DNA of 64,000 nucleotides, taken from assembly GCF_000025325.1 (NCBI RefSeq), contig NC_013743.1, positions 3,596,001 through 3,660,000 of the forward strand, written 5' to 3'. This document shows positions 5,841 through 18,752 of this stretch, in pieces. Each line of letters opens with the position of its first letter. The stretch's first letter is position 1. The notes under the pieces were generated by a model that was not told the DNA's origin, did no database searches, and worked only from the letters and a program-made list of their open reading frames with translations. The position numbers and the translations under genes were made by a program. The DNA comes from Haloterrigena turkmenica DSM 5511 (lineage in GTDB: Archaea; Halobacteriota; Halobacteria; Halobacteriales; Natrialbaceae).

Positions 5841-6257
5841 TCACCGTCGGCGTTCAGTCGGCGAGGCTCGAGCGACGTACAGCGTCCCCGTCTCGATCGT
5901 CCGGCGCTCGACCGGGATCGCGGGCTGGTCGCCGCCGAGGGTCGTAAACAGGAGGTCGGCGTCGGTCTCGCGAGCCACCGCGAGCGCGGGTCGGTGAAGT
6001 TCCGGCGGGAGGTTCAGCGCGTAGATCGCCTCGGCCGCGGCGTAGACCGCTGGATCTGGGTCGACGATATCGTCGCGGACGAACCGGACGCCGTCGGGGA
6101 CCGGCCGGTCGTGGACGTCAGTCGCGGTGACGGCGACGCCGCGATCGGCCAGCGCGGCCGCTACGTCGGTTCGGCGACCGATTCCGACTTCGACGAGCCG
6201 ATCGTACTCGGCCAGGGTCTCGAGCAGCGTCTCCGCGTTCCGGCGAGAGTGGGCCAC
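5841..6257 (-). CDS. UPF0146 family protein
   Basis: The 138-residue protein starts at GTG 6257 and reads VAHSRRNAETLLETLAEYD. It has a truncated Rossmann-like core (VEVGIGRRTDVAAAL, VTATDVH, FVRDDIVDPD, AIYALNLPPELH) that matches the archaeal UPF0146 family, which looks like a reduced SAM-methyltransferase fold of unknown function. The frame is open far upstream, but those residues are antisense to the archaemetzincin gene, so the GTG start is preferred. It is divergent from archaemetzincin with a 39-nt gap. Confidence 0.8.
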   Translation of the reverse strand: MAHSRRNAETLLETLAEYDRLVEVGIGRRTDVAAALADRGVAVTATDVHDRPVPDGVRFVRDDIVDPDPAVYAAAEAIYALNLPPELHRPALAVARETDADLLFTTLGGDQPAIPVERRTIETGTLYVARASPTERRR

Positions 6258-6264
6258 GGCGGGA

Positions 6265-6272
6265 CGTTTATG
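6265..6272 (+). promoter_or_regulatory. TATA-like box of archaemetzincin
   Basis: CGTTTATG ends 25 nt before the ATG at 6297. This supports that start over the in-frame ATG at 6270, which overlaps the box. Confidence 0.5.
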
Positions 6273-6296
6273 CCACCCGCGGCCATAGCCCTTGCC

Positions 6297-6818
6297 ATGC
6301 TCGTCGATATCGTGCCGGTCGGCAACGTCCCCGCGAACGTCAAGCGGGCGGCTTCCGCTGCGTTGCGATCGGTTTACGACTGCGACGTCTCGGTCAACGA
6401 CTCGCAGTCGGTCCCGAACGGTGCTTACGACGCCGACCGGAACCAGTACGCCGCCGAAACGTTCATCCAGCTCGCCGAACGGGTCGGCCGCGGGACGAAA
6501 AACATCGCGATCACGCCACACGACCTCTTCTACCGCCGTCGCAACTACGTCTTCGGGCTGGCCTACCTCGACGGCAGCGGGAGCGTCGTCTCGACCTACC
6601 GCCTCCAGACCTCGAGCGACGGCGGCTTCTCGAACCAGAGCGCCGAGGACATCTTCGAGGACCGGGTCCGCAAGGAGATCGTCCACGAAATCGGCCACAC
6701 CTACGGGTTAGAGCACTGCGACAACAACCGCTGTGTCATGAACTTCTCGCCGACGGTCCGCGAGGTCGACATCAAGGAAGAGAACCTCTGCGGGAGCTGT
6801 CAGCGGCTGATTAGCTGA
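6297..6818 (+). CDS. amzA: Archaemetzincin family zinc metalloprotease
   Basis: The 173-residue protein carries the complete archaemetzincin active site. HEIGHTYGLEH spans residues 130-140 (three His ligands), followed by Cys141, Cys146 and Met148, then a CGSC pair near the C-terminus; these four cysteines form the extra structural zinc site of the family. The N-terminus MLVDIVPVGNVP is typical. Family members are aminopeptidase-like metalloproteases whose role in archaea is not well defined. The promoter overlaps the 5' end of the divergent UPF0146 gene. Confidence 0.93.
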   Translation: MLVDIVPVGNVPANVKRAASAALRSVYDCDVSVNDSQSVPNGAYDADRNQYAAETFIQLAERVGRGTKNIAITPHDLFYRRRNYVFGLAYLDGSGSVVSTYRLQTSSDGGFSNQSAEDIFEDRVRKEIVHEIGHTYGLEHCDNNRCVMNFSPTVREVDIKEENLCGSCQRLIS

Positions 6819-9220: not shown

Positions 9221-10033
9221 TCAGGAGTTCTCGTCAGTGAGTATCGTTATGACCACATCCTTATCCTTGACATTCCGGTCGAAACCATCTAGTCGATAGT
9301 TTACTTCTTCGTCTTCGTTGATAGTATACGGGTCGTGGAACTCTTCCGCTCCGACAGCATATTCACCCTCGTTTCTGACCTCGCTGTCAGTAGTATTCGA
9401 GGAATCAAGCTCTATGACCTGATAGGATTGAGCGGGATTATTACTTGTATCATCTATTTTGATACCAGTCACTGTTACCGATTCGTTGTGCGTATTCCGT
9501 ATCGAAAACGTGACTTCTTTGCCATTTTCATTGTATTCGTCCGTGAATTCGTACCAATCGGCACTGAAGCCACCATCTCCACAACTGACGGTAATATCTT
9601 TGATCGTTCTTGTAGCTCCCTGGACGGATACGCCGTCACCGAAAGCGTCGACGACCATTATTATAATGTCGGTCTTCCCAGCTGCCTTATTTGATGTACA
9701 GGAACCGGAGACGCTCCAACTATTGTCCTGTTGACGAACAGTTAGATCTAGTAGTTCGTCACTCTCGGAAACAGTTATATCGGTACTATCGAGGCTGGTT
9801 ATATCGATAGCGTTCGTATTACTCTCGATAGTTGCAATCTCGGTTTGTTTGTTATGTTTATCAATCGTCGAACTCTGTGCCGTAATACCGATGAGTGCGT
9901 CCGGGTGGCTGGCAGTACTAACGCTAACTCCTCGATCAGCTGCCAGTGAACTGAAACCGAACGCTGGACTGATTATCATGGCTGCTCCGAGGACGATCAG
10001 ACAACTACCGACGAAGGTGATAGTTCGAGCCAT
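9221..10033 (-). CDS. Secreted beta-rich protein, camelysin/DUF1102-like N-terminus
   Basis: The 270-residue protein has a signal sequence (hydrophobic residues about 5-30) followed by SLAADRGVSVSTASHPDALI. That ADR-x-V-x-V, then D-A-L-I pattern resembles the mature start of DUF1102/camelysin/TasA-like exported proteins. The rest is Ser/Thr/Asp-rich with beta-strand-like alternation and two cysteines (in SGSCTSNK and VSCGDGG). The DNA is clearly AT-richer than its neighbours. It starts two bases after the stop codon of the DUF7344-like gene, so the two form an operon. Function unknown; a cell-surface or fibre component is my inference. Confidence 0.7.
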   Translation of the reverse strand: MARTITFVGSCLIVLGAAMIISPAFGFSSLAADRGVSVSTASHPDALIGITAQSSTIDKHNKQTEIATIESNTNAIDITSLDSTDITVSESDELLDLTVRQQDNSWSVSGSCTSNKAAGKTDIIIMVVDAFGDGVSVQGATRTIKDITVSCGDGGFSADWYEFTDEYNENGKEVTFSIRNTHNESVTVTGIKIDDTSNNPAQSYQVIELDSSNTTDSEVRNEGEYAVGAEEFHDPYTINEDEEVNYRLDGFDRNVKDKDVVITILTDENS

Positions 10034-10035
10034 AG

Positions 10036-10572
10036 TTACGGTGGCCGCTCCATCTCACCCAGTCGCATCCGTCGGCTCTGTACCACGTGGACAACCGCAG
10101 AAACCGCAAACAGCGCGAACACCAGCGTCGCCCAGCCGAGTTCAGAGACCGTCTCCGTCGGCACGACCTCGAGCCAGAGCCCACCCATCACGATCGCTCC
10201 GACCGCAGCGAGCCCCAGATAGTACAGTCCCCACGGAATCGAGTCCGCCGGAACGACGTCCAGATAGACGTCTAGCTCCGAGGCCTCGTCGGTGAGCTCG
10301 ATCGTTCGATTGTCGAACTCGATCATTTCGGCTCGCTCGAGCGTCGGGAGATGCGTCTGCTGTAACGACGTGTACACCCGTTTCCGTTCGGCGGAAGTGA
10401 TCTCCTCGATCTCCTTGTCGAGTTCCCAGGCGGCGACGTGTTCGGCGAGGTCCCCCAGCGTGACCGGCTCGTCCTCGCGTTTGCAGTAGTGAATCGCGTA
10501 TCGCCGCCGATGGTTGCTCAGAAGATCGAAGATTTCCCCCCGATCCGAATCGCCCCCCATCTGCGTTGCCAT
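10036..10572 (-). CDS. DUF7344-type winged-helix regulator with C-terminal membrane anchor
   Basis: In the 178-residue protein, residues 1-100 form a winged-helix domain beginning with the signature LLSNHRRRYAIHYCKRE, typical of the haloarchaeal DUF7344 family (family number from memory). They are followed by LGDLAEHVAAWE and LPTLERAEMIEFDNRTIELT. Two membrane segments (about residues 112-132 and 142-165) close the protein. This suggests a membrane-tethered transcription regulator. It is cotranscribed with the secreted protein at 9221 and lies downstream of the vWA gene, so it plausibly controls this surface locus (inference). Confidence 0.8.
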   Translation of the reverse strand: MATQMGGDSDRGEIFDLLSNHRRRYAIHYCKREDEPVTLGDLAEHVAAWELDKEIEEITSAERKRVYTSLQQTHLPTLERAEMIEFDNRTIELTDEASELDVYLDVVPADSIPWGLYYLGLAAVGAIVMGGLWLEVVPTETVSELGWATLVFALFAVSAVVHVVQSRRMRLGEMERPP

Positions 10573-10734
10573 TGAATCGTTCGTATTATGTTGAAAATAC
10601 GTCTAACTGATACATAACGCTTATTGCCGCGAGATACGCCTGTCTCCCAACTCTACAGTGGCCGACCAATCAGTCAGCAGCGTGTAGCATCTCTGAATCG
10701 TTCCGACCCGAGTGACAGGCGTACTGGGCGGCCG

Positions 10735-13389
10735 TCAATGGTCGATTTCTACAGTCCGCTCGGAAACGTGCACCGCATAGTTCGCAGTACTCCCTGTATC
10801 GTAGTTCACGGCGAGTTGCATCTGCGTATCCATATCGAGGTCGATCTCTTCGTCAACGATCTCCTCGAAGAGATCGAGTAGTTCGTCGGGATCAGCGGTC
10901 TGGTAGTAATTTCCGCCGGTCTCAGTCGCCCATCCCTCGAGTTTGTCTTCAGGTATCGAGTCGTGCTCGAGCGCGTCGAGACCGACGGTGTGAAGGGTGT
11001 AATCGAGGTCATCCGACCGATCGGCCAGTTCGTCCATCCGCTCGTCGTTGGCAGTGTTGGAGTTCTTACCGTCGCTCAGGAGAATAACGATTCGCTCGCG
11101 ATCATCGGTACCGCGGGTAGCGTAATCGTTGAGTGCCGCTTCCAGCCCGGCGGCCATGTTCGTCCCACCGTATGCGGTGCCGACGACGCTCTCTTTCGCC
11201 GACTCGAGATCATCGCTAAGGGGATGAAGGGCTCGGCCACTGCTGGCGAAATCGTAGACTCCGACCCGATCGGCGCTGGGGTCGAGTTCGTCGATAACGT
11301 TTCTGGTCGCCTCGACTCGCTGGTTCGTTGGATCGTTTCCTGGATGTGGGTAGATACCGATTGAGCCCGGTATATATCCGAACTGATGGTAGGGATGGAC
11401 CCGAATTTCCGTCCAATCATCGGGATGGACAAAATCTCTGTGCTCGAGCGTTCTGATCGTCCCGTCGTCGTCTCTGACTTGGATCGACTTCCAGTCATGC
11501 GTATTTCTAAACGGTTCGTCGGTCGGGATTGGCTCCCACTCCTCACCGATATCGATCTCATAGTCAGGTTCGTACGCGCTCCACGACGTTGGATTATGGG
11601 GGCCCATCGATCCCGATCGGTCGAGAACGAACGTTACGTCGACCGGAGGCCGCGTGTCACTGTACTCGAATAACAGATCGGTGTCCTCCTCAGATAGCGG
11701 TGTTGCACTCCGCAGCGAGCGATCAAAGTTAATCTGAACGTCGTCGCCGATCTCGAGCGTGTCGTCGCCACCTTCAGCCGCATCGCCGGCGATAACGGCC
11801 CCGTCGATGGTCACATCATCCTTGATTTCGAGGTCAGCACCCGGTGCGTAGACGACTCCCTGAAAGTCGTCCTCGATGGTAATCGTCGAATCGCTAGTAG
11901 CGTACACCCACAGCGAGTCCGCACGGTCGTCGGGTTGGATCTCGACATCCGATAGTTCGACATTACCGTCGACATAGAAATTCGTCCGGTTGTTGCCGGT
12001 GATCTCGACGTCCGAGAGGTCGAGGCTGCCGTCAACACCGATGTTGACGTTTCCATCAGAGGAATCCGTCGAATCGATACCGTCTTCCCCGCTGTACATG
12101 CCCGTAGAAACGTCACCATCGGCCGACGGCTTGCCAGAGAGGTACGACGTCAGAAGGCGATCGATCTTGTCGTCGATCGGATCGACGTCTGTGTACGGTT
12201 GCGAGAGTTCGGTTGCGAGTGCCGTTCCTTCGACGCCTTTACCCTCTCCCTCGTTCTCTGAATCCAACCGATAAAGCTTCTTGCCGCTCTCCGATTCACC
12301 CTGCGGGGTCCCATTGACGGCCACTCCGTAGCCGATCGGTGAAATCGACGGATTCCCTTTCGAACCCAGTTCACCGTTTACGACCGGGACACCTTCGATA
12401 TCGGCGTGGTTGTGTAGATGGAATTCATCGTAATTCGCGAGCAAGAAGCCGGGAGAGTCGTCACCGTCCGAACTGTGGTTTCCGTACGCGTTCATTGAAA
12501 GCGACGACTTGAGAGTGCCCGTTTCACCGTCGATATAGAGTCCGCTGCGAACCGTCGGTTCGATATCGACGAGTTCGCGAAGCGGTTCCTCGCCATCGAC
12601 GTTTGCGACGACCGTGACCGTCTCCTCGGATTCGTCGTGGCAGATAATGTTCTCGTCGACCGAGTTGGAGACCTCACAGTTGTTGGCGTCCGTCGCGTCG
12701 AACTCGTCTTTCAGAAAGTTGTACCATCCGTGATGGTAAGACGACCCGGAAACCTCGACCGTGGTATAGCTGACGACCTCGATATCCTCCCCGAGCGATT
12801 CGAACGAGTCTGTATCGGGATTCGGAATTTCCCGGACCGTATGCTCGCCCGTGCCGACGGTTCCCGTGAGCGTGACCGGTACGATATCGACTCGTCCGGC
12901 TTGCCCGTCCTCGGTCGATTCGTAGTAATATCGGAGATTCGGATCCGAAACCGCGGTCGCTCGGTCGCCGGAAACGTCCCAAGCCCCACCGGCTTGATAC
13001 GCGAACTCGTTACCGCCTTTATCGGTCGCAACCAGCGTCTCGAGCTCTATCGAGCGACTATCGTTCACGTATCCGTCCGAGACGGTTACCTCGATTTGAC
13101 CGTCAGAAATCAGTTCCCCGTCTAAATTATTGAATTGGACAGGCGCCGGAGTATCGTCCTGCACTCCAAGCGACGATATCGTGGAATCGAACTGTCGGAG
13201 TTCTCGCTGACTCTGTTCGCCGTACGCTTGGGATTCTGCGGCATCGAACGCTCCCATTCCGACGACGTAGACGGTCGTTGCTCCGAGAAATACCATTACG
13301 AACAACAATACAATCCCTAACTGAGGACTCGCCCCCCGATCGACCCGTTCGGAAAGAGAGACATCATCCTCTCTACCAATCCAACCCAT
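10735..13389 (-). CDS. Giant pilin-like vWA-domain surface protein
   Basis: The 884-residue protein has an N-terminus resembling archaeal type IV prepilins (DRGASPQLGIVLLFVMVFLG, about residues 17-36). A long beta-rich region of about 540 residues follows, including a parallel-beta-like stretch near residues 460-560 with NVELSDVEI and GVVYAPGADLEI. A vWA domain occupies about residues 581-830 with an intact MIDAS (DRSGS at 590-594, then GGTN and LSDGKN). About 95 residues are inserted between the MIDAS motif and the first vWA helix. Similar haloarchaeal proteins are annotated as DUF7289-type. Probable role: metal-dependent adhesion at the cell surface. Confidence 0.85.
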   Translation of the reverse strand: MGWIGREDDVSLSERVDRGASPQLGIVLLFVMVFLGATTVYVVGMGAFDAAESQAYGEQSQRELRQFDSTISSLGVQDDTPAPVQFNNLDGELISDGQIEVTVSDGYVNDSRSIELETLVATDKGGNEFAYQAGGAWDVSGDRATAVSDPNLRYYYESTEDGQAGRVDIVPVTLTGTVGTGEHTVREIPNPDTDSFESLGEDIEVVSYTTVEVSGSSYHHGWYNFLKDEFDATDANNCEVSNSVDENIICHDESEETVTVVANVDGEEPLRELVDIEPTVRSGLYIDGETGTLKSSLSMNAYGNHSSDGDDSPGFLLANYDEFHLHNHADIEGVPVVNGELGSKGNPSISPIGYGVAVNGTPQGESESGKKLYRLDSENEGEGKGVEGTALATELSQPYTDVDPIDDKIDRLLTSYLSGKPSADGDVSTGMYSGEDGIDSTDSSDGNVNIGVDGSLDLSDVEITGNNRTNFYVDGNVELSDVEIQPDDRADSLWVYATSDSTITIEDDFQGVVYAPGADLEIKDDVTIDGAVIAGDAAEGGDDTLEIGDDVQINFDRSLRSATPLSEEDTDLLFEYSDTRPPVDVTFVLDRSGSMGPHNPTSWSAYEPDYEIDIGEEWEPIPTDEPFRNTHDWKSIQVRDDDGTIRTLEHRDFVHPDDWTEIRVHPYHQFGYIPGSIGIYPHPGNDPTNQRVEATRNVIDELDPSADRVGVYDFASSGRALHPLSDDLESAKESVVGTAYGGTNMAAGLEAALNDYATRGTDDRERIVILLSDGKNSNTANDERMDELADRSDDLDYTLHTVGLDALEHDSIPEDKLEGWATETGGNYYQTADPDELLDLFEEIVDEEIDLDMDTQMQLAVNYDTGSTANYAVHVSERTVEIDH

Positions 13390-13412
13390 TACGAATTCGT
13401 ATCCATTACTGT

Positions 13413-13421
13413 GTTATAAAA
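13413..13421 (-). promoter_or_regulatory. TATA box of the vWA surface protein gene
   Basis: The minus strand reads TTTTATAAC, 24-32 nt upstream of the ATG at 13389, an excellent archaeal TATA box with leaderless spacing. Confidence 0.65.
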
Positions 13422-13583
13422 TGTAATGAGTGTTAACTCAATCTTCAATAGGATGATTCTGAGCGCTACCGAACGATGTGACCGGAGGAGATACCTCTAG
13501 CTCACTTTCAATGCTACTGCTGATGAATTGATCCGACTAGCTTTTGGGGGCGCTGTAGCGGTGGTAGCGGCCAATCTCTACTC

Positions 13584-13600
13584 TTCAAGACTGTCTTGAA
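13584..13600. promoter_or_regulatory. Candidate operator dyad
   Basis: TTCAAGACTGTCTTGAA is a perfect 7-bp inverted repeat with a 3-nt spacer, located between two divergent surface-structure genes. A regulator site is one reading. An RNA hairpin is another. Confidence 0.35.
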
Positions 13601-13738
13601 CGGGCGTATTACCGAGCTTTCGGTGTTTCTGGCAACCGAATACAAAGTGGGTCGCACTCCACGGTGAGCGTAAGAACCGCGTACTGGATTCCCGCCTCGA
13701 GGTGGGAGGACCGACGCGGTCATACGGAAACCATAACC

Positions 13739-14245
13739 ATGAGAATGAATCGACGCAATGTGCTAGTCGGACTGGGGACAATTGTCGCAGGCGGCGGAGC
13801 TGCGCTTGGGACGGGGGCGTTTAGTAGTGTGGAAGCGACTCGAACAATGACAGTCGGATTCAATAACGATTCGGCTGCGGAGTTGGTCCTGAATCCGACC
13901 AGTTCGTATGCGACTACGGAAACGAACAACGACAGTTCCAATGGTTCAAGCACGCTAAAACTAGCGTTTAATGACTTGAATGACAACGCTACGACAACGT
14001 TCACTGACGTCTTCGAAGTCGAAAACAACGACTCGAACGGCAACGCACACAGCATTTACGTGAAGAATTCCGGTCAAGTCGATGGGAGCACTATTGATTT
14101 TCAGGTTAATGGAAGCTCGATAGTTGGAGGAGCAATTACTGCAACGACAGATATAGCGACAAGTGATGGTCCAGTAAGCATCGATATCGTCATCGATTCC
14201 AGCAGTAGTATCTCTAATGCGAACGTGACAATCGTTGCAGACTAA
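13739..14245 (+). CDS. Tat-exported DUF1102/TasA-like subunit
   Basis: The 168-residue protein starts MRMNRRNVLVGLGTIVAGGG, a twin-arginine signal (RRNVLVGL), followed by GTGAFSSVEATRTMTVGF. That block is the hallmark of archaeal DUF1102 proteins, relatives of bacterial camelysin/TasA that are processed by SipW-like peptidases. The mature part is a Ser/Thr/Asn/Asp-rich beta-sandwich-like sequence without cysteine. The upstream in-frame extension to 13664 is rejected because it would bury the signal. A SipW/Sec11-like peptidase lies two genes downstream. Likely a secreted fibre or matrix subunit (inference from family). Confidence 0.8.
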   Translation: MRMNRRNVLVGLGTIVAGGGAALGTGAFSSVEATRTMTVGFNNDSAAELVLNPTSSYATTETNNDSSNGSSTLKLAFNDLNDNATTTFTDVFEVENNDSNGNAHSIYVKNSGQVDGSTIDFQVNGSSIVGGAITATTDIATSDGPVSIDIVIDSSSSISNANVTIVAD

Positions 14246-14351
14246 ACTCTCACTAACGTCTTTCTCGGCTCTATGACACTAGAACGAAGAGACGTTAGAG
14301 GCGGAGGTCTTCGAGGGGATAAACTGATCTAACACAACGAACACCAAACAA

Positions 14352-15536
14352 ATGTTGTCTATCTCATCGCCGGTAGTTACTGTCTTTATTTTCATTTTAG
14401 GGCTCACACTTGTGATTCCGACAGCTGCACTCACACTTGGTGGAGGTCAACCAGTCGACGAGAGGAAACATCTCCATCTTGCGCCGAGCGATGGAACCAA
14501 TGGACAGTACGCCGTCATTGATGACGACAAGATTACACTCAACCTCGAGGCCCTCAACGACCGCGCAATCACCACTGCTGGCGATGTCTTCACGATCACG
14601 ATCGCCGATAATGACGTCCAGCGGGTCTGGATCGAGAACGACATCGAGGGCCTCGAGTTCTACTCCGGAAACGATCCGACGGCCGAAATCACCGAATCAA
14701 GCCCGATCGAGCCATCAGCAAGCGATACTATCAGCGTCGGCGTCGCGGTCGATACGCATGTCGCTCACGCGGGCACGGAGACGTTCACGGTACACGTCCG
14801 CTATGACGATGACGAGGACGATGAAGACGACGAGGATAACGAAAACGAGACGCCCGAGAGTGTCTCCCTCGAGTCCCTCACAGTCACTCCGACGAGCCTC
14901 GAGACCGGCGAGTCAGTGACGATCGAGGGGACCTACCGAAACGGGAACGACACGGCGAAACGGCACACCGCGAAGCTGACCGTCGACGGCACCGTCGTCG
15001 ACAGTCAGACGATCGAGATCGCCGGCGGTGAGACCCGAACCGTCACCTTCGAGCGGGAGCTGCAGTGGCCGGGCAGCTACGACATCGGAATCGACGGCGC
15101 GGCGAGCGAACGGGTGACTGTCACGGGACCGGGCATCGAGATCAGCGAGGCGTCGGTCACCGACGCCGAACTCACGAGGGGCGATCGAACGACGGTCTCG
15201 GCGACCGTCAGGAACCCGACGAACGAGCCCGTCGAGCGAACGCTCGAGTTGGCGGTCGACGGGATCGTCGTCGATACCAGAACGGTCGTCGTCCAGTCGG
15301 GCACGGAGCGAACGGTGACGTTCGAGCGCCAGTTCGATGTCCCCGGAACGTACGACCTGTCGATCAGCGGCGTCGACGCCGGTTCGGTCACCGTCTCGGA
15401 ACCGGAGCCACACCCGATCCGAGATCGACAGCTGTCGGCAGCGACGACGGCCGCGCTCGCGCCGCCGCTGACGATGGGGGCCCTGCTCCTCGGCGTCGCT
15501 GCGAACCGCCGCTGGGCGATCGTCTCGAAATACTGA
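14352..15536 (+). CDS. DUF1102-like plus CARDB-domain cell-surface protein
   Basis: The 394-residue protein has a signal peptide (about residues 8-27), then a DUF1102-like beta domain up to about residue 155 (HLHLAPSDGTNGQYAVIDDD; VRYDDDEDDEDDEDNENE). The acidic linker leads into two CARDB-like domains. These are near 170-255 and 260-350 and share a TRTVTFEREL / ERTVTFERQF motif. A C-terminal membrane helix (about 370-385) and a short basic tail follow. It could be a membrane-held anchor or minor subunit for the smaller secreted protein upstream (inference). Confidence 0.75.
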   Translation: MLSISSPVVTVFIFILGLTLVIPTAALTLGGGQPVDERKHLHLAPSDGTNGQYAVIDDDKITLNLEALNDRAITTAGDVFTITIADNDVQRVWIENDIEGLEFYSGNDPTAEITESSPIEPSASDTISVGVAVDTHVAHAGTETFTVHVRYDDDEDDEDDEDNENETPESVSLESLTVTPTSLETGESVTIEGTYRNGNDTAKRHTAKLTVDGTVVDSQTIEIAGGETRTVTFERELQWPGSYDIGIDGAASERVTVTGPGIEISEASVTDAELTRGDRTTVSATVRNPTNEPVERTLELAVDGIVVDTRTVVVQSGTERTVTFERQFDVPGTYDLSISGVDAGSVTVSEPEPHPIRDRQLSAATTAALAPPLTMGALLLGVAANRRWAIVSKY

Positions 15537-15658
15537 TCCGATGATGAGAACCGACGAACACCCGCATCTCGGCTCGTTCGGGACTGTTAAGACGGCCCGG
15601 TTCGAACGTCGTCTCGATAGAATAATCAAATATCGATGATTTTTCTCGAGGCGCCACG

Positions 15659-16834
15659 ATGACGGGGACGACGCTCCTGAAGCGAACGCTGGGGCTAGGG
15701 GTCGCCCTCGTCGTTGTCCTGTTGTTGGTCGGCCAACTCCTCGGGCAGCCGATCCTGCTCGGGTACGTCGCGACCGGTAGCATGGAGCCGGCGATGGACG
15801 CCGGCGACGGCTTCGTCGCGGTCCCCAGCCTCGTCGATAGCTCGGTCGAACAGGGAGACGTCGTCGTCTTCGAGGCCCGGGAACTCCACGGCGGTGGGCT
15901 GACGACCCACCGCGTGGTCGGCGAGACCGAGGAGGGGTACGTCACCAAGGGTGACGCCAACCCCTTTACCGACCAGGACAGCGGCGAGCCCCACGTCACG
16001 GACGGCCAGATCGTCGCGAAAGCCTGGCAGGTAAACGGCGAGGTCGTGACGATTCCCCTCCTCGGGACGGCGATCATGGGCGTACAGGGCGTCGTCGAGT
16101 CGGCCTACGAAAGCGTCGCTCCGGTGGTCGGACTGACGACGACCGGCGACTCGGAGGGGCTCGGGGCCGCCCTCGTCGCCGTCGGCGTCGCCCTGCTCGG
16201 GTTCGGGACGGTGTTCGAGCGACTCGGTCCGGCGCGACGCGAGATCCATCGATCACGCTCTCGAGAGAACGTGATCGCGTTCTGGACGGCGCTGGGACTG
16301 GTCTTGCTCGTGTTCGTTACCTTCGCGACCGCGGCGATGGTCGTCCCCGCGGGCACCACCGAGTACGAACTCGTGAGCACCGACTCGCCGACCGACGATC
16401 CGCAGGTGATCGCCCCCGGAGAGACGACCGAACTCACCCGCACGGTCGATAACGCGGGCTATCTCCCCATCGTGGCCGTCCACGAGCCCGGGAGCAACAA
16501 CGTCGCAATCGACCCACCGACGCAGACCGTCGGGATCCGCTCGAGCGGGGAGACGACGGTCTCGCTGACCGCGCCCGACGAGACCGGGTCGTACACGCGA
16601 CACGTCGGCGAGTACCGCTACCTCGCGGTGCTCCCGCCGGCGGCGATCGTCTGGCTACACGGCCTGCATCCGCTCGCCGCGATCGCCGCGGTCAACGGCG
16701 TCATCGTGGGTCTCGCCGTCGCGATCGTGCTCGTCGTCTTCGGGCACAACGATCTGCGCGTTCGCTCGGCGGGCGATCATATTCCGGTATCGACCCGCCT
16801 CGAGCGGAAGCTGCGCAAGTGGCTCCGAGAGTGA
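15659..16834 (+). CDS. S26 signal peptidase, SipW/Sec11-like, with C-terminal extension
   Basis: The 391-residue protein has an N-terminal membrane helix and then the catalytic motif ATGSMEPAM with Ser41. THRVVGE follows with His84 in place of the bacterial lysine, then KGDAN with Asp99, giving a Sec11/SipW-type Ser-His-Asp site. Residues from about 150 on add two or more membrane segments and an extracellular beta domain (about 240-320) not needed for catalysis. SipW-type peptidases process TasA/camelysin-like proteins, and this gene sits directly behind two such candidates. A dedicated peptidase for this locus is therefore the likely role. Confidence 0.88.
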   Translation: MTGTTLLKRTLGLGVALVVVLLLVGQLLGQPILLGYVATGSMEPAMDAGDGFVAVPSLVDSSVEQGDVVVFEARELHGGGLTTHRVVGETEEGYVTKGDANPFTDQDSGEPHVTDGQIVAKAWQVNGEVVTIPLLGTAIMGVQGVVESAYESVAPVVGLTTTGDSEGLGAALVAVGVALLGFGTVFERLGPARREIHRSRSRENVIAFWTALGLVLLVFVTFATAAMVVPAGTTEYELVSTDSPTDDPQVIAPGETTELTRTVDNAGYLPIVAVHEPGSNNVAIDPPTQTVGIRSSGETTVSLTAPDETGSYTRHVGEYRYLAVLPPAAIVWLHGLHPLAAIAAVNGVIVGLAVAIVLVVFGHNDLRVRSAGDHIPVSTRLERKLRKWLRE

Positions 16835-16979
16835 TCTGCTCATCGATGGCCAATATCGTTATAATGTTCGGATCGCATGGAAGAACGAACGTGTCTCCGC
16901 AGCCAGTCGGAGAATCGGTGCGGACAAATGGGGGGAGACAATCGCCGTACGGGACGGCTTCGATCGGGGTGTCTAACAC

Positions 16980-18155
16980 GTGATCGATAATCCGCGTCTC
17001 GACCTGTTGCTCGCCAAGTACGGGCGGTCGATCGTCGTCGTCCTCGTCGGGATCGGCGTCCTCGCCTTTCTCGCTTCCGGGTGGGCCGTCGCGACGCCGT
17101 CGACGTCGACGAGCCACCAGTACGCCGACGAACGCGTCTCGAGCGACGTCGAGACGAGCGCCGTCGTCGTCCGGAACGGAACGCTCTGGAACGAGGGCGA
17201 TCGACTCGAGAACAGCGGCGTCTACATGCTGAACGCGTCGCCGGAGCTAACGCTCCGCGCAGAGACCGGACTGACGAACGCGACCGCTGGGACGCCCGTC
17301 GACGACGGGACCGTGAGCCACGAACTGACGCTTCGGTTCGAAGCGACGCGTGAGGGCGCGGCGTTCTGGAACGAGACCCGGACGCTCGTCGACGAGTCGC
17401 CGGCGGTCGAGAACGGCGTCGCGAGATCGAACGCGACCGTCGACGTCGAATCCGTTCGCGATCGGCAGCGCCAACTCGAGCGCGAACTGTCCGGCGTCGG
17501 GTCCGTCGACGTCCATCTCGAGTTCCGCGCCACCTACGAGACGGGCGCGGGACAGGGGGTCCAGGAGACGTCGACGACGCTCGAGGTGACCGACGACGCC
17601 TACTGGCTGAGCGACTCGCTGTCCGCGTCGGACGAACAGCGCTACCAGACGGGGACGACGGAGACGACCGAGTCTCGGAACCTCGGGCTGATCGCCGGCC
17701 TCTCGCTGCTCGGGACGCTCTCGCTGGCCGGCGCCGCCGTCGTCGCCCGTCGCTCGCCGATCGACGAGGCGGCCGCCCGCCGGGCCGTCCACGAGCAGCG
17801 CTACGCCGAGTGGATCTCGCGGGGGTCGATCCCGATGTGGATCGGCGACTACCACGTCTCGCTCGATACCCTGGAGGACGTCGTCGACGTCGCGATCGAC
17901 ACGAACGAGCGCGTCGTCCACGACACCCAGCGCGGACTGTTCGCCGTCGTCAACGACGGCGTGGTCTACTACTACAGCGATCGGGGACTCTGGGAGGAAA
18001 CCGCCTGGCCAGAGATGGACCTCGACGACGGCTCCGCGGTCGTCGACGCCGACGCGCCGCGGAGCCCGGAGGAGCTCGAACTCGAGGGAAGCGACGAGTT
18101 CGCGGACCCGGACGACGGGTTCGACGACGACGCGGACGTCTGGCGAAAGCTCTGA
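16980..18155 (+). CDS. DUF5305 family membrane protein
   Basis: The 391-residue protein starts at GTG 16980. An N-terminal membrane helix (about residues 16-38) is followed by an extracellular beta-rich part (about 40-225), a second membrane helix (about 235-255) and a cytosolic acidic C-terminal domain of about 130 residues. SHQYADERVSSDVETSAVVVRNG and LWNEGDRLENSGVYML match DUF5305, a family regularly found next to archaeal SipW-type peptidases and DUF1102 genes (from memory). Its function is unknown; here it closes the surface locus. A GTTATAATG at 16858-16866 could be its promoter with a long leader. Confidence 0.75.
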   Translation: MIDNPRLDLLLAKYGRSIVVVLVGIGVLAFLASGWAVATPSTSTSHQYADERVSSDVETSAVVVRNGTLWNEGDRLENSGVYMLNASPELTLRAETGLTNATAGTPVDDGTVSHELTLRFEATREGAAFWNETRTLVDESPAVENGVARSNATVDVESVRDRQRQLERELSGVGSVDVHLEFRATYETGAGQGVQETSTTLEVTDDAYWLSDSLSASDEQRYQTGTTETTESRNLGLIAGLSLLGTLSLAGAAVVARRSPIDEAAARRAVHEQRYAEWISRGSIPMWIGDYHVSLDTLEDVVDVAIDTNERVVHDTQRGLFAVVNDGVVYYYSDRGLWEETAWPEMDLDDGSAVVDADAPRSPEELELEGSDEFADPDDGFDDDADVWRKL

Positions 18156-18356: not shown

Positions 18357-18425
18357 CTCACGATGTACTTTACCGTTCAGATTCTGTTGGAAACTTTTGT
18401 GGTAGTCACGGTTCGTAAGGCTCAA

Positions 18426-18433
18426 CTTTTATG
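18426..18433 (+). promoter_or_regulatory. TATA-like box of the winged-helix regulator
   Basis: CTTTTATG ends 25 nt before the ATG at 18459. It supports that start over the in-frame upstream ATG at 18363. Confidence 0.5.
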
Positions 18434-18458
18434 CTGCTGGGAGCTTTCGATTCGTAAT

Positions 18459-18752
18459 ATGGCAGAGACCGACGGGGAGGACATCGAAGATTTGCCACCG
18501 AGCGCCAAACTGGTTTTCAAGGTTCTCGAGTACGACGGGCCGCTGACCCAGAAACAGATCGTCGAGGAATCGATGCTGTCGGCCCGAACCGTCCGCTACG
18601 CGCTCGAGCGGTTAGAGGAGATCGGAATCGTCGACGAGGATATCTACTTCGCCGACGCACGCCAGAGTCTCTATCGACTCGAGGAGCCGGTGGCAGCCGA
18701 CGGAAACGGCGTCGAGGAGTCCCCGAAGAAGGACGCCTGCTGCGCCGAATAA
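18459..18752 (+). CDS. MarR/TrmB-like winged-helix regulator with C-terminal Cys pair
   Basis: The 97-residue protein is a single winged-helix domain: PPSAKLVFKVLEYDGPLTQ, then QIVEESMLSARTVRYALERL (recognition helix) and the wing VDEDIYFADARQSLYRLEE. It ends KKDACCAE, and this Cys-Cys pair could sense redox state or metals (inference). Such one-domain proteins are very common and conserved in haloarchaea, and their targets are unknown. It stands alone on its own promoter. Confidence 0.82.
   Translation: MAETDGEDIEDLPPSAKLVFKVLEYDGPLTQKQIVEESMLSARTVRYALERLEEIGIVDEDIYFADARQSLYRLEEPVAADGNGVEESPKKDACCAE

Follow-up and report, generated by a model that had tools for sequence, protein, structure and literature searches.

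What do the exported proteins that cluster with a signal peptidase gene in the Natrialbaceae haloarchaeon Haloterrigena turkmenica DSM 5511 assemble? The cluster starts at position 9221 of the window analysed here, a stretch of 64,000 nucleotides that corresponds to bases 3,596,001–3,660,000 of a 3,889,038-base replicon (contig NC_013743.1) in a genome of 5,440,782 bases and seven contigs. A first-pass annotation had proposed a matrix fibre with TasA/camelysin-like subunits, a SipW-like peptidase, a CARDB protein as anchor and a von Willebrand factor A (vWA) protein as adhesin. From sequence comparison we judge, with a probability of roughly 0.8, that the locus encodes a surface pilus akin to the haloarchaeal twin-arginine translocation (Tat) fimbriae, or tafi (Galeva et al. 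2025, iScience 28:111793, as cited in PMC12687288); a pilus locus of known kind in a lineage-specific form is the most economical account. The genes themselves are present as listed, with eight open reading frames confirmed at or very near the coordinates originally given. They are referred to below by their first coordinate in the window:

9221–10033, minus strand: exported protein in the TafC position, 270 amino acids
10036–10572, minus strand: winged-helix regulator, 178 amino acids (Pfam DUF7344, 7e-30)
10735–13389, minus strand: vWA surface protein, 884 amino acids (Pfam DUF7289, DUF7305 and VWA)
13390–13738: divergent intergenic (promoter) region of 349 bp separating the two gene groups, read from the sequence
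13739–14245, plus strand: TafE-type pilin, 168 amino acids (NCBIfam TafE, NF052522)
14352–15536, plus strand: TafF-like CARDB protein, putative anchor, 394 amino acids (two Pfam CARDB domains, 3e-14)
15659–16834, plus strand: archaeal-type signal peptidase (Ser-His-Asp), 391 amino acids (TIGR02228)
16980–18155, plus strand: DUF5305 membrane protein, 391 amino acids, GTG start (Pfam, 5.5e-49)
18363–18752, plus strand: small winged-helix gene (HTH_24, 5e-6), of uncertain membership in the locus

A probable pilin with a twin-arginine signal

The product of 13739 begins with a twin-arginine signal, MRMNRRNVLVGLGTIVAGGGAALGTGA (motif MNRRNVLVGLG), followed by a mature sequence that starts FSSVEATR. 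Over its full length it matches the NCBIfam TafE model (5e-32, 111 bits), and profile–profile alignment with hhalign pairs its family with TafE at 99.5% over 142 columns, which span the whole mature protein. R5, R6, G26, A27, F28 and A33 are invariant across 50 aligned pilins, and the predicted cleavage site, G-A/F, appears to resemble that of TasA, in which a Phe lies close behind the cut and processing is carried out by the archaeal-like SipW (PMC10269814).

A profile of 50 pilin homologues gave one strong match among PDB chains, 9p0a 'Pilin' (5e-46), which the 13739 protein alone also matched (1.6e-20). Across all 215 residues, the 9p0a chain and a Natrinema gari protein (locus L076, 7965–8612) are identical, and L076 carries, in order, a 9221-like gene, the DUF7344, vWA, pilin, CARDB, peptidase and DUF5305 genes, an unassigned gene and a winged-helix gene. 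Because 9p0a is the product of L076 and L076 is orthologous to the locus in the window, a relative has at the 13739 position a gene for a pilin whose structure is solved, and the earlier proposal that this locus builds a fibre stands on that identity. In several relatives, L054 and L107 among them, the 13739-type gene is present as a tandem array of two or three copies.

An AlphaFold model of the 13739 pilin (predicted local distance difference test, pLDDT, 70.7) had a sole Foldseek match at E ≤ 0.001, the bundling-pilus protein AbpA (7ueg; 7.8e-4, probability 1.00, template modelling (TM) score about 0.4), and the weaker matches below it include type 1 pilus subunits with a donor strand (FimG). 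9p0a was absent from these Foldseek matches, as was AbpA from the PDB sequence matches of the pilin profile. TasA fibres assemble via an N-terminal donor strand, and the authors of that work term the archaeal bundling pili TasA-like (PMC9674648). The structure prediction that had been suggested as a check for donor-strand folds gave, for the 13739 monomer, a model with AbpA and the FimG donor-strand entries among its matches.

The TasA-like resemblance of the locus proteins shows in fold and profile comparisons only. That part of the first-pass annotation survives in the AbpA match; the predicted similarity to the Pfam families Peptidase_M73 (camelysin/TasA) and DUF1102 does not, as neither matched any window protein even at E ≤ 1. 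M73 (PF12389) had no match in the whole genome, and in ten relatives, as in the window proteins, DUF1102 and camelysin/TasA had no Pfam or NCBIfam match. Unlike the genome of the window, one congener has a Pfam Peptidase_M73 match, of 61 bits (L055; G147:C1:1061203–1061757).

Pilin-like partners and a putative regulator

The 9221 protein has a hydrophobic N-terminal segment, a pilin-like N-terminal domain and a variable, beta-rich C-terminal part. The twin arginine is missing from the protein in this slot in the window and in most Natrialbaceae members, and is present in several relatives. The Natrialbaceae family aligns by hhalign with TafC at 95.7% over 124 columns (the TafC alignment comprising two rows after trimming) and with the pilin family at 97.5% over 95 columns, and its profile matches 9p0a at 3.9e-6; against the NCBIfam TafC model the 9221 protein scores 16.9 bits (cutoff 410). 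The C-terminal part differs among relatives, being a Laminin_G_3 domain in the TafC of locus L036 and a bactofilin-like beta-solenoid in L063. As the pilin-like N-terminal region is common and the C-terminal part varies, the family is suggested to be a minor tip or adapter subunit. The beta-solenoid was seen in two TafC-position proteins (L063:6777–7610 and L044:9563–10381).

In the CARDB protein 14352 an N-terminal pilin-like domain is followed by two CARDB domains and, at the C-terminus, by a hydrophobic segment (residues 366–384), an architecture that would suit it to anchoring the base of a fibre; this arrangement supports the proposal that it is the anchor. Its N-terminal domain aligns with TafF at 98.3% over 142 columns and with the pilin family at 98.0% over 117 columns (97.1% in a second alignment), and the protein has no match to the NCBIfam TafF model. 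The DUF7344 regulator has two C-terminal hydrophobic segments (116–134 and 146–164).

A signal peptidase with an additional domain

The 15659 protein passes the archaeal signal peptidase model TIGR02228 (54.5 bits, cutoff 51.85) and has the invariant residues S41, H84 and D99/D105. Described earlier as SipW-like, it scores 33 bits against the SipW model NF046067, well below the cutoff of 190. Among named relatives it is closest to that of Haloterrigena salina (92% identical). It has four hydrophobic segments, with about 110 residues inserted between the third and the fourth, and this insert (residues ~231–341; window 16349–16681) resembles a CARDB/Ig-like domain (hhalign 87%, 4e-6, 72 columns) that is presumably extracellular. 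At least 330 amino acids are found in 79 of 80 relatives of the peptidase, and we know of no such extra Ig-like domain in SipW. Neither this ectodomain nor that of the DUF5305 protein showed homology with the pilin.

We searched 44 genomes separately for the peptidase and for DUF5305. Both occurred in 26 and neither in 17, with DUF5305 alone in one (a fragment match); DUF5305 was thus present in 26/26 genomes with the peptidase versus 1/18 without it, and 30 of 35 DUF5305 matches lay no more than 6 kb from a peptidase match. The DUF5305 membrane protein is a probable assembly partner on this sequence evidence.

Three congeners (G145, G146 and G148) have a second peptidase of the same type, 46% identical (for example G146:C1:1536121–1537191), of which the genome of the window has no copy. 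In three similar second loci (L111, L112 and L117) the regulator and DUF5305 genes adjoin, and two of the three have a pilin-like gene.

A conserved neighbourhood without TafA

Loci were picked via the peptidase, which yielded 67 with enough flank, 37 of them closest to that of the window. Near the peptidase in the 67 full loci were the pilin (62), DUF5305 (64), regulator (63), 9221/TafC-like (60) and CARDB (52) genes; in the 37 closest the corresponding counts were 35, 37, 35, 37 and 33; the winged-helix gene was present in 31 and the vWA gene in 15. Since the same neighbours recur in 33–37 of the 37 related full loci, the arrangement is far beyond chance. The linkage of peptidase, DUF5305 protein and subunits that had been predicted is supported by this survey and, for peptidase and DUF5305, by co-occurrence in the 44 genomes. 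One contig with a haloarchaeal-type pilus locus (L133, PULR01000059.1) bears the label 'Mollicutes bacterium', which probably reflects misbinning in that metagenome-assembled genome.

The vWA protein fared differently. It has one full-length copy in the genome, its gene is 83–87% identical in three congeners, and its N-terminus, RGASPQLGIVLLFVMVFLGATTVYVVG, looks prepilin-like by eye; the protein has a Pfam DUF7289 match. With the gene in just 15 of the 37 related loci, we rejected it as a core part; it is an accessory of some Natrialbaceae loci, and neither the idea that it is the adhesin nor the matrix function proposed for the fibre gains support. For a variable tip, the 9221 slot, filled in 37/37, would be the stronger candidate.

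DUF7344, signal peptidase and DUF5305 genes also neighbour true tafA, tafC, tafE and tafF genes (reference loci L035–L042). In L036, for example, TafA (250 bits), TafE (225), TafC (568) and TafF (582) each score above the NCBIfam cutoff and are accompanied by a DUF7344-type regulator, a DUF5305 protein and a 381-amino-acid peptidase homologous to that of the window. The DUF5305 proteins of the window and of tafA-bearing loci align at 99.0% over 305 columns; the winged-helix gene of the 18363 type was not seen in tafA-bearing loci. In the peptidase tree, the seven tafA-bearing reference loci and L043 form one supported group (100/99), and the window falls, together with the N. gari locus, in a group of 44 Natrialbaceae rows (100/99). 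Because TafA is missing and the peptidase clades are separate, we regard the locus, on sequence grounds, as a TafA-less sister lineage of tafi and not as a member of tafi as named.

Constant machinery and a variable pilin

Compared with five congeners, the peptidase is 82–92% identical, the regulator 87–94% and the DUF5305 protein 76–91%. In the four congeners with a readable locus the signal peptide of the pilin is 100% identical and the mature pilin 34–36%; the Natrialbaceae medians are 74% for the peptidase, 100% for the signal peptide and 33% for the mature pilin. The core of the signal peptide (window 13739–13819) is identical in 22 other Natrialbaceae pilin genes, whose mature parts are about one-third identical. 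Most congeners have a different protein in the 9221 slot: identity to the 9221 gene is 86% in one congener, and others have distant members (~26–33%) or a TafC-like gene in its place. Conserved machinery beside a fast-changing pilin and companion appears from these comparisons to be the most notable feature of the locus.

Genes that encode the identical signal peptide differ at 5–17 of 72 nucleotides. Such differences are what synonymous drift would produce with selection acting on the peptide, and we do not favour gene conversion or a recent exchange as the cause of the identical peptides.

A model for assembly and the alternatives

We propose that the 168-residue TafE-type pilin folds in the cytoplasm and leaves through Tat by means of its hardly variable signal peptide. 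The dedicated signal peptidase would cut just before the invariant Phe (...GTGA/FSS...) and free the N-terminal strand of the pilin, which would enter the beta-sandwich of the next subunit, so that the fibre could grow, like that of TasA, by donor-strand exchange. The base of the fibre would be held by the TafF-like CARDB protein, whose pilin-like domain sits on a stalk anchored in the membrane, and the 9221 protein would serve as a minor tip or adapter that can be exchanged. Assembly may be aided by the DUF5305 protein and by the Ig-like ectodomain of the peptidase, the DUF7344 protein is a predicted membrane-bound regulator, and the vWA protein would be an optional accessory. Adhesion, biofilm formation or virus attachment may be what the pilus serves.

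Several results weigh against this reading. A search with the TafA model NF052520 found no TafA in the genome: its match took in just the 37 N-terminal positions of the 13739 product, the signal region (48.6 bits, cutoff 190), and nothing else in the genome matched significantly. The 13739 pilin itself stays under the TafE equivalog cutoff (111 versus 155 bits). The link to 9p0a was made by sequence match, and confidence in the 13739 model is modest (pLDDT 70.7; TM-score of about 0.4 against AbpA), its N-terminal part being weak. Finally, a Foldseek search with the AlphaFold2 model of the 9221 protein (pLDDT 74.8) returned nothing at E ≤ 0.001 and mostly generic Ig folds, so that the pilin-like nature of this protein rests on sequence profiles.

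NCBIfam calls TafE a 'fimbrial adapter' and reserves 'fimbrial protein' for TafA, which raises the question of whether the 13739 product is merely an adapter and the main fibre is built from another protein, such as 9221 or the vWA protein, which is larger than any other surface protein encoded there. We consider this unlikely: the N. gari protein in the same position is the solved 'Pilin', the genome has no TafA, 13739-type genes occur in tandem in L054 and L107, and most related loci lack the vWA gene. A biofilm-matrix fibre of strict TasA/camelysin type, with Sec export and SipW processing, would agree with the archaeal Ser-His-Asp peptidase and its weak SipW match (33 bits), with the TasA-like AbpA as best fold match and with the description of archaeal bundling pili as TasA-like (PMC9674648). 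It is nonetheless improbable, given a twin-arginine signal on the pilin, the absence of Pfam M73 and DUF1102 matches in the window proteins and of M73 in the genome, and a pilin far nearer to TafE and 9p0a; the strict family assignment is largely refuted. A third reading has the locus encode separate wall- or S-layer-associated proteins with their peptidase and no filament at all; in its favour, haloarchaeal surfaces commonly carry exported proteins rich in beta structure, and the 9221 model weakly matches S-layer domains (SbsC). Identity of an orthologous product to a PDB 'Pilin' and synteny with named fimbrial genes make such a filament-free locus very improbable.

If the locus does encode a pilus of the Tat-fimbria kind, it shows a widespread TafA-less lineage of a class, the Tat-exported pili, described only in 2025, and connects this lineage both with a solved pilin and with fibres of the TasA/AbpA class; within the lineage the TafE-type protein alone appears to act as the pilin. 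The gradient from signal peptide (100%) through peptidase (82–92%) to mature pilin (34–36%) offers a testable case of a machinery that reads mainly the export tag, and the Ig-like domain fused to the peptidase suggests a coupling of cleavage to polymerization in an archaeon that has neither an outer membrane nor an usher. We may speculate further, as a tentative idea that we hold to be doubtful, that the peptidase is part of the assembly platform and that its CARDB/Ig-like ectodomain takes over the freshly cut, Tat-exported pilin, so that donor-strand exchange is coupled to the removal of the signal. The near-invariant signal peptide would then be the pilin's only ticket, and mature pilins and tip proteins would therefore be free to diversify or swap quickly, with pilus-using viruses as a possible source of the pressure.

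Base composition and flanking sequence

The annotation had placed the locus in AT-richer DNA, which is real and confined to particular genes. The GC content is 46% in 9221, 48% in 13739 and 56% in the vWA gene, and 62–69% in the regulator, anchor, peptidase, DUF5305 and measured flanking genes; the low GC of the region is due mainly to the three surface-protein genes. At positions 5994–6818 on the plus strand, a reading frame has a HEIGHTYGLEHC zinc-protease motif with later cysteines near its end and looks archaemetzincin-like by eye.

Comparison with known systems

Bacillus subtilis TasA–SipW–TapA, the implied model system of the annotation, shares with the locus a dedicated archaeal/ER-type peptidase beside a beta-sandwich subunit, an aromatic residue directly after the cleavage site and an accessory subunit (PMC9674648, PMC10269814). 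The window differs in its twin-arginine rather than Sec signal, the lack of an M73 match and the extra Ig-like ectodomain of the peptidase. AbpA of the Pyrobaculum calidifontis bundling pili (7ueg), the only fold match to the 13739 model at E ≤ 0.001, differs by an identity of 12% and a TM-score of about 0.4.

With a Tat signal on its subunit, the locus has its nearest described system in the haloarchaeal Tat-fimbriae. Both have a twin-arginine TafE-type subunit with TafC-like and TafF-like partners, and tafA-bearing loci have DUF7344, signal peptidase and DUF5305 neighbours like those of the window. The locus departs from them in lacking TafA, scoring below the Taf equivalog cutoffs, having another gene order, a vWA accessory, CARDB domains in its anchor and a TafC-position protein without a twin arginine, and in the separate, supported clade of its peptidase. 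The Natrinema gari pilin (9p0a), although its mature part is only about 41% identical to that of the 13739 protein, comes from an orthologous locus position, has an identical signal-peptide core and a full-length profile match (5e-46), and belongs with a peptidase of the same clade as that of the window.

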